Assembly: GCA_902541775.1 (NCBI GenBank)
Contig: CACBSE010000005.1
Coordinates: forward strand, 1 to 60,522
Direction of reading: 5' to 3'
Source of the DNA: an uncultured Litorivicinus sp.
GTDB lineage: Bacteria; Pseudomonadota; Gammaproteobacteria; Pseudomonadales; Litorivicinaceae
DNA: 60,522 nucleotides
The notes beneath the pieces were generated by a model. The model worked only from the letters and a program-made list of their open reading frames with translations, had not been told where the DNA came from and searched no databases. The position numbers and the translations under genes were made by a program. Below are positions 53,714 through 60,522 of the stretch, piece by piece; position 1 is the stretch's first letter; each line of letters starts with the position of its first letter.

Positions 53714-54841
53714 TTACTTTAAAAACAATCTACAACTCTCCTGTGTTAATCCCCTTGCTTCAGCATGCTGCGACCAAGCACCGGGAGTGCTGTCCCACTC
53801 CTGAATCGCTAGTTCGCAAACTTCTTTGGTAGAAACCGAAAAATCAACAGAAATAGGCGGTGGTTCTGCTTTAGCCAAAGAGAAAAAATTTATAGGGTTC
53901 GTTTTAGCCCTCTTGCATATTTTCCGCCCAAAATCAGATGCTGCATGACTGTAATTCTCCCATGGTATAGACGCAGATGTGGTAGTTACCTCAGCGGTCA
54001 AAAAGTCACAGGTATTTTTCGAAACGATATCTGAACAGTTTTTGCTAGTGCCAAAACGGCTTATTTGGATTAACGAATCGGGGGTATCGAGATTTACATC
54101 GCCCCGATAAAGTCCAAATTTGTGAAGGATGCCGTGACTCAAAGTGGTATTTGGACCTTTGTGGCTTATGACCTTCTCGCCATTAAAGAGCATTATAAAC
54201 TCGCCATCGTGTCCCTTACTTGGAAGAAATTTTAAGTCAATCTGATTAGTTGTTTCTTCAAGATCGGCCATTGGTGCGAGTTTAAACCGTGTCGCCCTAT
54301 GCTTCATATTGGAATTGTTTTCGCCGCAAAGATAGAAGACCTCATAATTAAGATAGAAAGTGAAAGTGAGAAAACCGCTTTGATTCTTGAGTTGAGCAAC
54401 TGGATTCCAAGCTCCACCATCACGATTCGCAGCAATTATTTGCAAATATTTGTCAGACCCAGAACCTCGGTTATCTAAGCCGGCTGGGATTCTAAACCGA
54501 TAGGTAAGAAAATATGGCTGATTTAAGTTGTACTTTTTCTTTTTGTCTCGCAACTCCCAACGCTGATTACGCTCACCTGTTCGATCCCAATCGGCTTTAC
54601 CGCCCTCATCGTTATATGAAAGGGAAATTTCCGCAAATGGTTCGTCATGAATATTTACGCGGCTAACAATGTCGCCAGACTTTGCGTTCCTTGAACTAGG
54701 AACCAGCGATCGTGAATCACCCACCGCAAACTCTTTTAAAATTTTTGCACCGCTTGAACTAGAAGTATTGAAATTGCTGGCATGAGTGCTCTCGAGTCCA
54801 ACAACTATCACCAAAAAAAATATGATCGCTATGTTTTTCAT
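53714..54841 (-). CDS. Exported polysaccharide lyase-like protein
   Basis: A 375-aa secreted protein with signal NIAIIFFLVIVVGLESTHAS. The middle (PYFLTYRFRIPAGLDNRGSGSDKYLQIIAANRDGG, AQLKNQSGFLTFTFYLNYEVFYLC, LSHGILHKFGLYRGD) follows the beta-jelly-roll layout of heparin lyase I-type proteins (PF14099). Catalytic residues cannot be confirmed by eye. The C-terminal part after about residue 270 is unlike that family and has five cysteines, perhaps a disulphide-bonded extension. If active it would degrade an acidic polysaccharide outside the cell. Confidence 0.5.
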   Translation of the reverse strand: MKNIAIIFFLVIVVGLESTHASNFNTSSSSGAKILKEFAVGDSRSLVPSSRNAKSGDIVSRVNIHDEPFAEISLSYNDEGGKADWDRTGERNQRWELRDKKKKYNLNQPYFLTYRFRIPAGLDNRGSGSDKYLQIIAANRDGGAWNPVAQLKNQSGFLTFTFYLNYEVFYLCGENNSNMKHRATRFKLAPMADLEETTNQIDLKFLPSKGHDGEFIMLFNGEKVISHKGPNTTLSHGILHKFGLYRGDVNLDTPDSLIQISRFGTSKNCSDIVSKNTCDFLTAEVTTTSASIPWENYSHAASDFGRKICKRAKTNPINFFSLAKAEPPPISVDFSVSTKEVCELAIQEWDSTPGAWSQHAEARGLTQESCRLFLK

Positions 54842-56441: not shown

Positions 56442-57413
56442 TTATTTCACCTTGGCGGCTTTGAGGAGCAGAACAGCAAAACGTTTTTCGGTATCGCACC
56501 AACAGTGGCTTAATTCCCAGCCCGCTTTTTCAGCAAGTCTTGAAAAATCTTTGACAGTATATTTATGGGAGGTTTCGGTGTGAAAGCTTTCACCTGCTGC
56601 TACCTTATATGCTTTGCCGGAGATTTCAAACGTCTGATCTACTGTAGCGACTAGGTGCATTTCGATTCTTGCCGGATTGGTTAGATAGCGTGCCTCGTGA
56701 GCAAAAGCGCTTGGATCAATTGCAAGACCGAGTTCGCGGTTAATACGCTTCAAAAGATTACGATTAAATTCAGCCGTAACACCTTCCGGGTCGTCATAAG
56801 CGGAAATCAATACATCAGGCGATTTATCAAGATCGACGCCAATCAAAAATGTAGCCTCATCGCCCAAAATTGTGTGGCAGTGCATCAACAAGGATTGCAC
56901 CTCAGCCACCTCTAGGTTACCAACGGTCGAGCCTGGAAAAAAACCTAACCGATTACGATGTGGAGGCAACGAAGGTGGTAATTGAAACTCCATTGTAAAG
57001 TCAGCAACCAACGCCACGACGGGTAACGATGGTAGTTTGCTGGATAGCCTAGCAGCCGCTTGACGCAGGTATTTTGCCGAAATATCCACAGGCACGTAGC
57101 CCGCTGGCCGATCAAGAGCCCTGAGTAGAGGAAATGTCTTTCGGCTCGATCCACTCCCCAATTCTATCACTAACCGGTCACGGCCAATGGCTCTGGAAAT
57201 TTCCTCTAAGTTGTCATCGAGAATTTTGATTTCAGTTCGCGTCAAGTAATAACTTGGAAGCTGGGTGATGTCTTCGAAAAGTGCTGAGCCACGTTCGTCA
57301 TAAAACCAAATAGGTGAAATACGATGCTCGGGTCGTTCTAGTGCCTCAACAAGTGCCTCTCCTAGTGTTTGCACATTGCTGCCCAAATTCGTTTTTGAAC
57401 TAGTTGAAAACAT
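56442..57413 (-). CDS. egtD: L-histidine N-alpha-methyltransferase (hercynine-forming)
   Basis: A 323-aa SAM-dependent enzyme that trimethylates the alpha-amino group of histidine to hercynine. Family signatures: ISPIWFYDERGSALFEDITQLPSYYLTRTE, AdoMet loop LVIELGSGSSRKT, GYVPVDIS, FFPGSTVGNLE, GVDLDKSPDVLISAYDDPEGVTAEFN, and the C-terminal FHTETSHKYT, which holds the Glu/Ser that contact the histidine amino group in characterised EgtD. It lies two bases after the fused permease gene, as the last gene of a four-gene operon. No EgtB or SenA/B/C gene is inside the window. Confidence 0.93.
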   Translation of the reverse strand: MFSTSSKTNLGSNVQTLGEALVEALERPEHRISPIWFYDERGSALFEDITQLPSYYLTRTEIKILDDNLEEISRAIGRDRLVIELGSGSSRKTFPLLRALDRPAGYVPVDISAKYLRQAAARLSSKLPSLPVVALVADFTMEFQLPPSLPPHRNRLGFFPGSTVGNLEVAEVQSLLMHCHTILGDEATFLIGVDLDKSPDVLISAYDDPEGVTAEFNRNLLKRINRELGLAIDPSAFAHEARYLTNPARIEMHLVATVDQTFEISGKAYKVAAGESFHTETSHKYTVKDFSRLAEKAGWELSHCWCDTEKRFAVLLLKAAKVK

Positions 57414-57415
57414 AC

Positions 57416-58930
57416 TTAACCTGCCTCAAGTTTTGTTGGTGTTGTGCGCAAACGTAGTTGCCAACGAATAGTGCGCGCTAGCGAGTCAACACCAATGTTT
57501 AGCAGTGCGGTAATAAATATCAGTACGAGAGCTCGATCAAAGCGTAGTTCTTGAATAGCGCTATCGACGTAGAATCCAAGTGTCGTAATACCTAATATCC
57601 CAAGAATTGCCGTCTCACGCATGATTATTTCCCAACGATATAGTAAAAAAGATAGGAACGATCGATAAAGTCGGGGTACTACCTCATAGGTGTAGCAGTT
57701 AAAGCCACCGACAACGTCAGGTCTAAGTCTGAGGGTGCTACTTTGACGCCCAATGAGATGGCCAATGATGGCACCGTTGTGAATAACTAATGCTACTGCC
57801 GCCGGTAGCATAGACGGTCCCCAAAGTTGTAGTAGGATATACGCTAGCAGATACTCAGGCACTGAGCGACCAATTATCAAAAGTCCATGCCCAGGCACCT
57901 GACGAAAACGGTCGACAAACAATCGAGAAATTAAAGGGAAAGTCAGTAAAGCAACGATTCCAGTGCCCACCAGCGCAATTTGCGTGAGCACGAGCGTGGT
58001 AACAATGCCAGGTAATGCTTGATACAATAGTAAATCGCCTAACCACGATGCCAAACCCGCAACACCCTCACCATTACGTAGTGGCGAGGGAATGATATCC
58101 ACAGTAAAAAACCGTGTGGCATTGCCCCACACAATAGGCAAACCAGCGCCTAGAAAAAAAGGAGCAGCTAGTAAGTAGAGAACGACTAGTTTTGGTCGTA
58201 ACCATAGTCTAAGGCTTCCGATAGTTATTAAAAATATAAGCAATATCATTCCGACTTCACCATATTGGCCCTCGGCGTAAGAACTCTCCAGGTAAAATCC
58301 TAGCGTTGGCATACCGACAAAACCAAGTACAGCGCTTGAGCGCATACCGCACTCAAAGCGATAACTAGTGTAGCTGGTAAGGTGCGCCCAAAGATCAGGC
58401 ACGCGCGCATACCAGAATATTGAAATTAGACCACTATGAGCTGATAGAGCCTCCACTGCACCGCGATCACCTTCTTCAAGAATTTCGCTATATACTCGCC
58501 CGAAGGTCGCCGCGTAAGGTAGTGCTATAGCTAAAACGCCAGTGATGGGGTGTAGACCAAAAAACTGCAAAAAAATAAGTGCCCAAAACAGTTCATGGAT
58601 GGAGCGAACGAATGCACAAAAAATTCGCACGACTCGGTAATGAAAAATCAAGGCCAAACCCATACCCAAAACAGCCGCGGCGCCTACGCCAGTGAACGCA
58701 AAGGCTAGTGTTCGAGTTAGAGCAACAATCGCCGTATCAAAAGTTGCAAAATCAGGCTGTATTAAACCTCGGCCAAAACGAGCTAATTCGCTCCAGGGCG
58801 CAGTTGATCGAATTTGGAGATCAGCCAGCCAAACACAAACTAGTGCAATTCCGAGTAGCCATAAGCTGGTGCGCACCAACGGTGCTGACAGCACACTCCA
58901 GCGCTTGTGTTCCGGTCTAGTAGAGCGCAT
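57416..58930 (-). CDS. Fused two-domain PhnE-like ABC permease
   Basis: A 504-aa inner-membrane protein that repeats the BPD_transp domain, so one chain supplies what is usually two PhnE copies. The first half has IHELFWALIFLQFFGLHPITGVLAIALPYAATFGRVYSE; the second repeats it with GRSVPEYLLAYILLQLWGPSMLPAAVALVIHN (EAA-type loops ARVPDLWAHLTSY and VPRLYRSFLSFLL). The start ATG at 58930 overlaps the ATPase stop by 14 bases. The architecture is typical of phosphonate- and oxyanion-type uptake systems. Confidence 0.88.
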   Translation of the reverse strand: MRSTRPEHKRWSVLSAPLVRTSLWLLGIALVCVWLADLQIRSTAPWSELARFGRGLIQPDFATFDTAIVALTRTLAFAFTGVGAAAVLGMGLALIFHYRVVRIFCAFVRSIHELFWALIFLQFFGLHPITGVLAIALPYAATFGRVYSEILEEGDRGAVEALSAHSGLISIFWYARVPDLWAHLTSYTSYRFECGMRSSAVLGFVGMPTLGFYLESSYAEGQYGEVGMILLIFLITIGSLRLWLRPKLVVLYLLAAPFFLGAGLPIVWGNATRFFTVDIIPSPLRNGEGVAGLASWLGDLLLYQALPGIVTTLVLTQIALVGTGIVALLTFPLISRLFVDRFRQVPGHGLLIIGRSVPEYLLAYILLQLWGPSMLPAAVALVIHNGAIIGHLIGRQSSTLRLRPDVVGGFNCYTYEVVPRLYRSFLSFLLYRWEIIMRETAILGILGITTLGFYVDSAIQELRFDRALVLIFITALLNIGVDSLARTIRWQLRLRTTPTKLEAG

Positions 58931-59567
58931 CAAGGTCGTGGGTATTGACCGCCCTGCTAGGTGCATCTAAAGCAATAGTACCGTCTTGAATGCCAATTAG
59001 TCGATTGGCATAACGACGGGCCAAATCGAGATCATGCATCGCAATGATGGTGGTAGTGTTCTGTTTGATAAGCGCTTGCATCACCGCTTCAGAGCGTGGC
59101 CCATCTAGCGCGGATACCGGCTCGTCGGCCAATAGCACGTCGGCATCTTGAAACAATGAGCGGGCAACGGCCACACGCTGACGTTGGCCGCCCGAAAGTT
59201 CGCCGACTCGGCTCCAAAGGGTTGACGCCATGTCCAATTGTTCTAATACGGCCGTCACTGCTCGAATTTGAGTGCGAAATGGTCGAATTAAATTGATTAG
59301 ATTATACGCGCCCGAATGCGCAGCTAATTGCCCCATGTAGACATTATGAAATACGCTAAGCGTATCCACCAATCCTAAGTTTTGGGGGATGAGAGTGATG
59401 TCACTACGGCGGCGATCATACAGTAAGGATAACAACGTGGTTTTGCCCGCACCGCTGCGTCCCACCAACGCTATGTGTTCACCTTGTTGAACATGCAAAT
59501 TAATCGGCCCTAAAACCTGAGTACCACCGAAATCAGCATAAGCTTGATTGAGAATTAACGGGCTCAT
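58917..59567 (-). CDS. PhnC-like ABC transporter ATP-binding protein
   Basis: A 216-aa ATPase. Walker A VGRSGAGKTTLL, Q-loop LIPQNLGLVDTLSVFHNVYMG, signature ELSGGQRQRVAVARSL, Walker B VLLADEPVSALD, and H-loop IIAMHDLDLA. The VDTLSVFHNVYMG segment is characteristic of PhnC-like subfamilies. The ATG overlaps the binding-protein stop by one base (TGATG). Confidence 0.93.
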   Translation of the reverse strand: MSPLILNQAYADFGGTQVLGPINLHVQQGEHIALVGRSGAGKTTLLSLLYDRRRSDITLIPQNLGLVDTLSVFHNVYMGQLAAHSGAYNLINLIRPFRTQIRAVTAVLEQLDMASTLWSRVGELSGGQRQRVAVARSLFQDADVLLADEPVSALDGPRSEAVMQALIKQNTTTIIAMHDLDLARRYANRLIGIQDGTIALDAPSRAVNTHDLDALY

Positions 59568-60421
59568 CAGTCGATTAAACCAACCTGCTGAGCGGTTCGC
59601 TTTATAGGTGCATAATCAGAGTTCTGCGCGGGAATAAAGGCACTTCGTGCGAAGCTCTTCAGTAACTTGGGATCATCCATCGCCAGCAGGGCCGCCTTAA
59701 CTTTATCGGAAAATCCGGCACCAAACTGCTCATCTACGTCTCCGCGAATACTCCACTGGTAATTGGGATAGGCTGGCGTCTTCCAAATAACTTTGACAGC
59801 ATCAGTATCAATACTGCCTGCGGCCAGCTCACGTTCCCAGACGGCATAATTAATAGCACCAATATCATAACTTCCACTCTCCACTAAGCGCAAAGTACGA
59901 CTGTGATTACCGCTGTAACCGACTTTTTCGAACACTTTATCTGGTGACTCGCCAAACCGCTCGGTCAAATAAAACTCTGGGATCAATCTGCCTGAGGTTG
60001 AGCTTTTCGAGCCGAAAGTCATTGTCATGCCGCGCATGCTCTTATCAATGACATCACCAGCTTGAAGACCGGTGCTTTTGTGAGCGATCAAGTAAGTCCA
60101 AAACGCTTGATCTTCAAAGCCTTGAGCCAAGGCTAGCGAATTGGGTACTGTCGAGCGCGCTTGGACGCCAGATAATGCACCAAACCAAGCGAGCTGAACT
60201 TGGCCATTTCGAAATGCGCTAACTGCAGCAGCGTAGGACTTTACAGGCACATAACTAACCTCAATATCAAGAGTCTTTGATAAATACTCGCTCATTGGGC
60301 CGAAACGTTCTTTTAACTTGCTTTCATCCTCATCAGGAATAGCCGTAAAAACTAGCACCTCGGCATGAACGTGCAAAATAAGGAGAAGGTTAAGCGCAAA
60401 AGCGCGCCAAAAGTATCTCAT
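59567..60421 (-). CDS. PhnD-like periplasmic binding protein (possible selenate/oxyanion type)
   Basis: A 284-aa periplasmic protein with signal RYFWRAFALNLLLILHVHAE. The mature start VLVFTAIPDEDESKLKERFGPMSEYL and QLAWFGALSGVQAR are PhnD-like. The pattern also resembles proteins annotated as putative selenate ABC transporter binding proteins, but I cannot separate that from phosphite or phosphonate binding by eye. The start at 60421 is used: AAAGGAT lies seven bases upstream; the longer ATG is not needed. It opens the transporter-egtD operon. Confidence 0.85.
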   Translation of the reverse strand: MRYFWRAFALNLLLILHVHAEVLVFTAIPDEDESKLKERFGPMSEYLSKTLDIEVSYVPVKSYAAAVSAFRNGQVQLAWFGALSGVQARSTVPNSLALAQGFEDQAFWTYLIAHKSTGLQAGDVIDKSMRGMTMTFGSKSSTSGRLIPEFYLTERFGESPDKVFEKVGYSGNHSRTLRLVESGSYDIGAINYAVWERELAAGSIDTDAVKVIWKTPAYPNYQWSIRGDVDEQFGAGFSDKVKAALLAMDDPKLLKSFARSAFIPAQNSDYAPIKRTAQQVGLID

Positions 60422-60460
60422 AGGATATCCTTTTATTAACATCTAATTTTGATTTGAATT

Positions 60461-60522
60461 TTAATCACCCGCAGGTGCGAAACCCGGCAATAATATCGTT
60501 CCGCTCTGGCAAGAAAAAGTTA
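60461..60522 (-). CDS. Possible C-terminus of an upstream gene (partial)
   Basis: On the minus strand the last 20 codons read TFSCQSGTILLPGFAPAGD and stop (TAA), ending 39 bases before the binding-protein ATG. The tract is open to the window edge, so it may be the end of another gene of the same operon. No family can be named from 19 residues. Confidence 0.35.
   Translation of the reverse strand, partial: TFSCQSGTILLPGFAPAGD

Follow-up and report, generated by a model that had tools for sequence, protein, structure and literature searches.

At the right edge of the window, by which we mean the whole stretch of 60,522 nucleotides analysed here, which is also the entire contig C5 of a genome estimated to be 61% complete, lie four minus-strand genes and the cut end of a fifth (Table 1). 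The four encode a PhnD-like binding protein (SBP), a PhnC-like ATPase, a fused PhnE-like permease and EgtD; the first-pass annotation had placed them where we find them, and the profiles agree with its naming, including the likeness of the binding protein to putative selenate carriers. It had also flagged a partial frame near 60461 as a possible missing gene, and this proved real: positions 60465-60521 hold the C-terminus and stop of SenA, and the encoded peptide, NFFLPERNDIIAGFRTCG, agrees at every residue with the SenA C-terminus of L032, the locus from genome AG-905-C17. The close relatives of the genome are Litoricola-like marine Gammaproteobacteria, some of whose public records carry the name Litoricola, and the OM252 bacterioplankton have been joined to Litoricola by GTDB (PMC8269220).

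Table 1. Genes and gene parts at the right edge of the window
Feature	Position	Strand	Remarks
senA 3' end (selenoneine synthase)	60465..60522	-	final 57 bases, truncated at the end of the contig; encodes NFFLPERNDIIAGFRTCG (last 18 residues, then the stop)
TIGR04553 'putative selenate' binding protein (SBP)	59567..60442	-	388.6 bits against a cut-off of 250
PhnC-like ABC transporter ATPase	58917..59567	-	216 aa; profile resemblance to PhnC
Fused tandem PhnE-like ABC permease	57416..58966	-	516 aa; TIGR01097 matched twice along a single chain
egtD, L-histidine N-alpha-methyltransferase (hercynine synthase)	56442..57413	-	323 aa; TIGR03438, 353.8 bits against 290.9

Gene content and spacing

The SBP and ATPase genes share a single base, and the ATPase and permease genes overlap by 50 bases if the listed permease start is taken or by 14 if the start is the internal ATG used in relatives; this ATG, at 58930 (MRSTRPEHKRW), is the likelier start since it matches those relatives. 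Only 2 bases separate the permease gene from egtD. The window EgtD conserves all eight of the matches to Y39, Y56, G161, N166, Y206, M252, E282 and S284, which we take to be in the active site of M. smegmatis EgtD. The transporter genes do not reach the equivalog cut-offs of the phn families (PhnC 173.4 bits against 266.1, PhnE 193.9 against 216.7, PhnD 137.6 against 261.1), and these scores, together with the sen genes found upstream, led us to reject a plain phosphonate operon. The identical gene set is kept in the same order in at least four other genomes at 74-99% identity, so the arrangement goes beyond chance. Elsewhere in the window, the protein encoded at 53714-54841 weakly matches a polysaccharide lyase family (PF14099; 36 bits, cut-off 29.9).

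The locus beyond the contig edge

Five loci in relatives (L032, L033, L034, L036 and L097) share a seven-gene order: a selD fusion, senB on the opposite strand, senA, and then the genes for the SBP, ATPase, permease and EgtD. In L032, SelD scores 290.4 bits against a cut-off of 125 and carries an N-terminal TIGR03169 oxidoreductase domain, SenB scores 383.3 against 300, and SenA scores 475.9 with NF041186 against 420; full-length SenA passes its cut-off in the relatives L032/G020, G021 and G018. The senB gene of L032 (L032:7652-8650) overlaps the 3' end of selD on the opposite strand and starts 26 bp from senA, a spacing into which two divergent promoters would scarcely fit, and the divergent senB-senA pair is seen again in most sen loci examined.

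The window genome itself holds the other half on contig C51 (5,705 bp), where we find selD (293 bits, cut-off 125), senB (382.9 bits, cut-off 300) and, at the very end of the contig, the first 52 positions of the SenA model. We consider it very likely, from the order in relatives, that C51 and C5 are neighbours joined through senA, of which the window genome has assembled both ends only, with ~1.08 kb (about 1,083 bases relative to L032) missing between the two contigs. The forecast of the first-pass annotation that senA, senB or senC would lie past the right edge is thus largely borne out, both in every close relative with an intact locus and, for selD, senB and the start of senA, on C51. What it had named as contrary evidence, upstream phn or ptx genes in a genome devoid of selenium genes, is not what the DNA holds, as sen genes lie upstream in the relatives and selD and senB on C51.

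Identity to AG-905-C17 is 99.6% for C51 and 96.3% for the window part. Along window:56444-60522, compared with L096, the identity to AG-905-C17 is a mosaic in which ~2 kb of near-100% identity, covering the ATPase and permease genes, lies between stretches of 93-95%, and the DNA flanking the locus matches AG-905-C17 in patches only. The mosaic suggests recent recombination inside the locus; with the unequal identities of the two contigs, it makes either a strain mixture or recombination possible.

Loci with egtD, the TIGR04553 transporter or both recur in other families. The pairing of the transporter with sen genes does not hold everywhere: when 369 genomes were sampled evenly across the class, 22 further SenB loci came to light, 20 of them with SenA, 17 with SelD, seven with EgtD and six with the TIGR04553 SBP. 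An early impression that Marinobacter is without senA was wrong, since the gene lies elsewhere in the genome in four Marinobacter-type genomes. Two Marinobacter-type genomes, G083 and G142 (L135 and L133), have SenA, SenB and the transporter, while EgtD was not found in them, and so hercynine may be imported there or SenA may use another acceptor.

Selenoneine or ergothioneine as the product

Tuna and other marine animals contain selenoneine, a selenium antioxidant. The first-pass annotation had named both a selenoneine and an ergothioneine locus as possible and had inferred the former, which the gene content favours. EgtD is the first enzyme of the ergothioneine pathway, and an ergothioneine locus, in which the hercynine made by EgtD goes on to EgtB, could also appeal to the 289-318 bits that SenA reaches with the EgtB model. 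However, no protein passes the EgtB cut-off of 360 in any of seven congeners (this genome and six others, one of them 99% complete), the one long match of the EgtB model in locus-bearing genomes is to SenA, a protein that scores above the cut-off of its own family, and the adjoining genes are those for SenB and SelD. On these grounds we rejected an ergothioneine operon, which we now regard as very improbable, and the absence of an above-cut-off EgtB from the seven congeners supports selenoneine as the predicted product. SelU is present in the window genome, and SelA was not found in it or in the six congeners; judging from the assembly, selenium would be used here for tRNA selenouridine and by the sen locus.

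Association of the transporter with selenium genes

We surveyed 146 relatives for the transporter, counting TIGR04553 and SelD above curated cut-offs. The SBP is present in 34 of them, and all 34 have SelD, which is found in 80 of the 146 overall (Fisher p ~3e-11, uncorrected for relatedness). In 24 of the 34 genomes the SBP gene lies no more than 5.4 kb from selD, selU or senB; the other ten SBP genes are without a known selenium gene within 10 kb on their contig, and one of these is the gene of the window genome, where the assembly splits the locus. All 11 SenB genomes among the 146 relatives have the SBP, at 145-1,465 bp from senB in the ten that carry both on one contig. The SBP gene adjoins selU in 13 relatives of the same order, and in Methylobacterium, an alphaproteobacterium, it also adjoins sen genes. 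A selenium substrate for the transporter is therefore well supported by gene context, by SelD in every SBP genome and by the 24 close neighbourhoods. A genomic survey of 2015 proposed YedE as the selenium transporter and left the TIGR04553 family unmentioned (PMC5322559).

The binding pocket and a phosphorus ligand

Among solved structures, the AlphaFold model of the SBP (pLDDT 90) best matches PhnD1 proteins from picocyanobacteria in complex with phosphate, methylphosphonate or phosphite, at 37-39% identity. Selenite has a pyramid of three oxygens, like phosphite, and this shared shape leads us to favour selenite over selenate as the putative ligand. Pocket residues reported for Prochlorococcus PhnD are Y46, F90, the STS motif at 126-128, H158 and Y206 (PMC5700983), and the SBP keeps all of these residues, and with them the oxyanion cradle and tyrosine cap. 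Since the pocket is so nearly that of phosphite and phosphate binders, a phosphorus ligand is still compatible with the sequence taken by itself, and the transporter might then take up phosphite, phosphate or a small phosphonate, its place in a selenoneine locus being a coincidence. The nearest structures and the kept pocket agree with such a role, but the scores below the phn cut-offs do not, nor does the distribution of TIGR04553, which is confined to SelD-bearing genomes among the relatives searched, usually beside selD, selU or senB, and which adjoins sen genes in Alphaproteobacteria too.

One pocket position also argues against phosphorus. The residue of PhnD that interacts with protonated phosphite, D205, is replaced in the SBP by N227 (window:59762-59764), and Asn stands there in most of the Litoricola-Marinobacter branch; in HtxB, whose pocket differs elsewhere, the corresponding change D206N abolished phosphorus binding (PMC6629693). 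Weighing all this, we consider phosphorus import unlikely and retain selenium as the probable substrate. The position does not provide a pocket signature dividing sen-linked from selU-linked SBPs, and none was found: Asn at 205 tracks the Litoricola-Marinobacter branch, and the sen-linked SBPs of Methylobacterium keep Asp at this site, but have Asp for Asn at position 176.

Origin and decay of the locus

The sen-type SelD is 67% identical to the SelD of Marinobacter and only ~31% identical to that of locus-free congeners. In the SelD tree the sen-linked proteins cluster (94/95), with those of Litoricola and Marinobacter as sisters, and the native SelD stands far away. The native selD is intact, near selU, in the locus-free congeners; in the window genome it is a relic (L160:6365-7283, that is, G000:C8:6365-7283) with stops, a frameshift and a deletion of residues ~155-538. 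Relics with differing break points occur in G018, G013 and G012, and none in G021 (L163-L166). Genomes with the sen locus have thus either a degraded native selD or none. On the simplest reading the incoming locus would have brought a selD along, and the native copy would have become dispensable, several times over. With the native selD reduced to a relic in the window genome, the product of the sen-locus selD probably also feeds SelU for tRNA selenouridine. In G012 (L166), which is 88% complete, SelU passes its cut-off and SelD above cut-off was not found anywhere, which would make this SelU either an orphan or the mark of an assembly gap.

The locus itself has decayed in two genomes, where relics (L124:2648-4438 in G012 and L126:7922-9670 in G017) hold C-terminal senA and N-terminal SBP fragments in the original order, with the end of the permease gene in G012. 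Beside them egtD is intact, with a dN/dS of ~0.25 between the two genomes, as in locus-bearing pairs, and by this measure it is under purifying selection. Such survival is what one would expect if hercynine were the end product, with EgtD used for something else and its position beside the sen genes secondary. The placement of egtD runs counter to this idea, as the gene follows the permease gene by 2-12 bp in intact loci and directly adjoins senA in another family, and we hold a hercynine end point to be quite unlikely, with selenoneine preferred.

Proposed pathway and significance

We are highly confident that the window holds the right-hand half of a selenoneine (sen) locus complete in itself, in which uptake, activation, precursor supply and assembly all appear to be encoded together. 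The SBP, ATPase and fused permease would import a selenium oxyanion, most likely selenite, which would be reduced to selenide in the cell, a step for which a dedicated gene was not seen. The selD-fusion product would turn selenide into selenophosphate, SenB would join selenophosphate with a UDP-sugar to give a selenosugar, and EgtD would trimethylate histidine to hercynine. SenA would then bring the selenium of the selenosugar together with hercynine, and breakdown of a selenoxide would yield selenoneine. The SelD, SenB and SenA steps are assigned here through curated family models, and the chemistry of SelD/SenC, SenB and SenA is established for the Variovorax enzymes (PMC10702425, PMC10891094, PMC10903977); the pathway so assigned is the already known SenABC pathway.

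A broader proposal has three parts: that PhnDCE-type transporters of the TIGR04553 kind are dedicated selenium (probably selenite) importers which travel with selenophosphate pathways, that marine selenoneine has one of its microbial sources in the free-living ocean bacteria of this group, and that a locus with its own selD displaced the native selD. We judge this proposal as a whole to be evenly poised between right and wrong. A whole locus including uptake in a marine lineage provides named genes to seek in seawater metatranscriptomes, the TIGR04553 system is a candidate selenium-specific ABC importer that lends itself to direct testing, and the putative replacement of the native selD by that of the sen locus is a small natural experiment. 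Together, egtD and the TIGR04553 transporter would mark a selenoneine locus.

Comparison with known systems

NCBI's TIGR04553 entry proposes the same selenium role as a hypothetical equivalog, to which gene context adds support here; its label reads 'putative selenate', whereas the fold points to selenite, or another pyramidal oxyanion, no less than to selenate. The phosphite binders PhnD1 and PtxB are alike in fold, in the STS-His oxyanion cradle and in the tyrosine cap, and the SBP differs from them by the change of D205 to Asn in the Litoricola-Marinobacter branch and by its selenium gene context. Ergothioneine egtBD operons have EgtD in common with this locus, which is without EgtB and has SenA in its place. 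The closest likeness is to the senABC cluster of Variovorax paradoxus, where SenA, SenB and a SelD-type selenophosphate synthase are likewise encoded together and serve the selenosugar route (PMC10702425, PMC10891094, PMC10903977). The locus described here differs from that cluster in having a dedicated ABC transporter and egtD, which run in the same direction as senA, in the N-terminal oxidoreductase domain of its SelD, and in the position of senB on the other strand.
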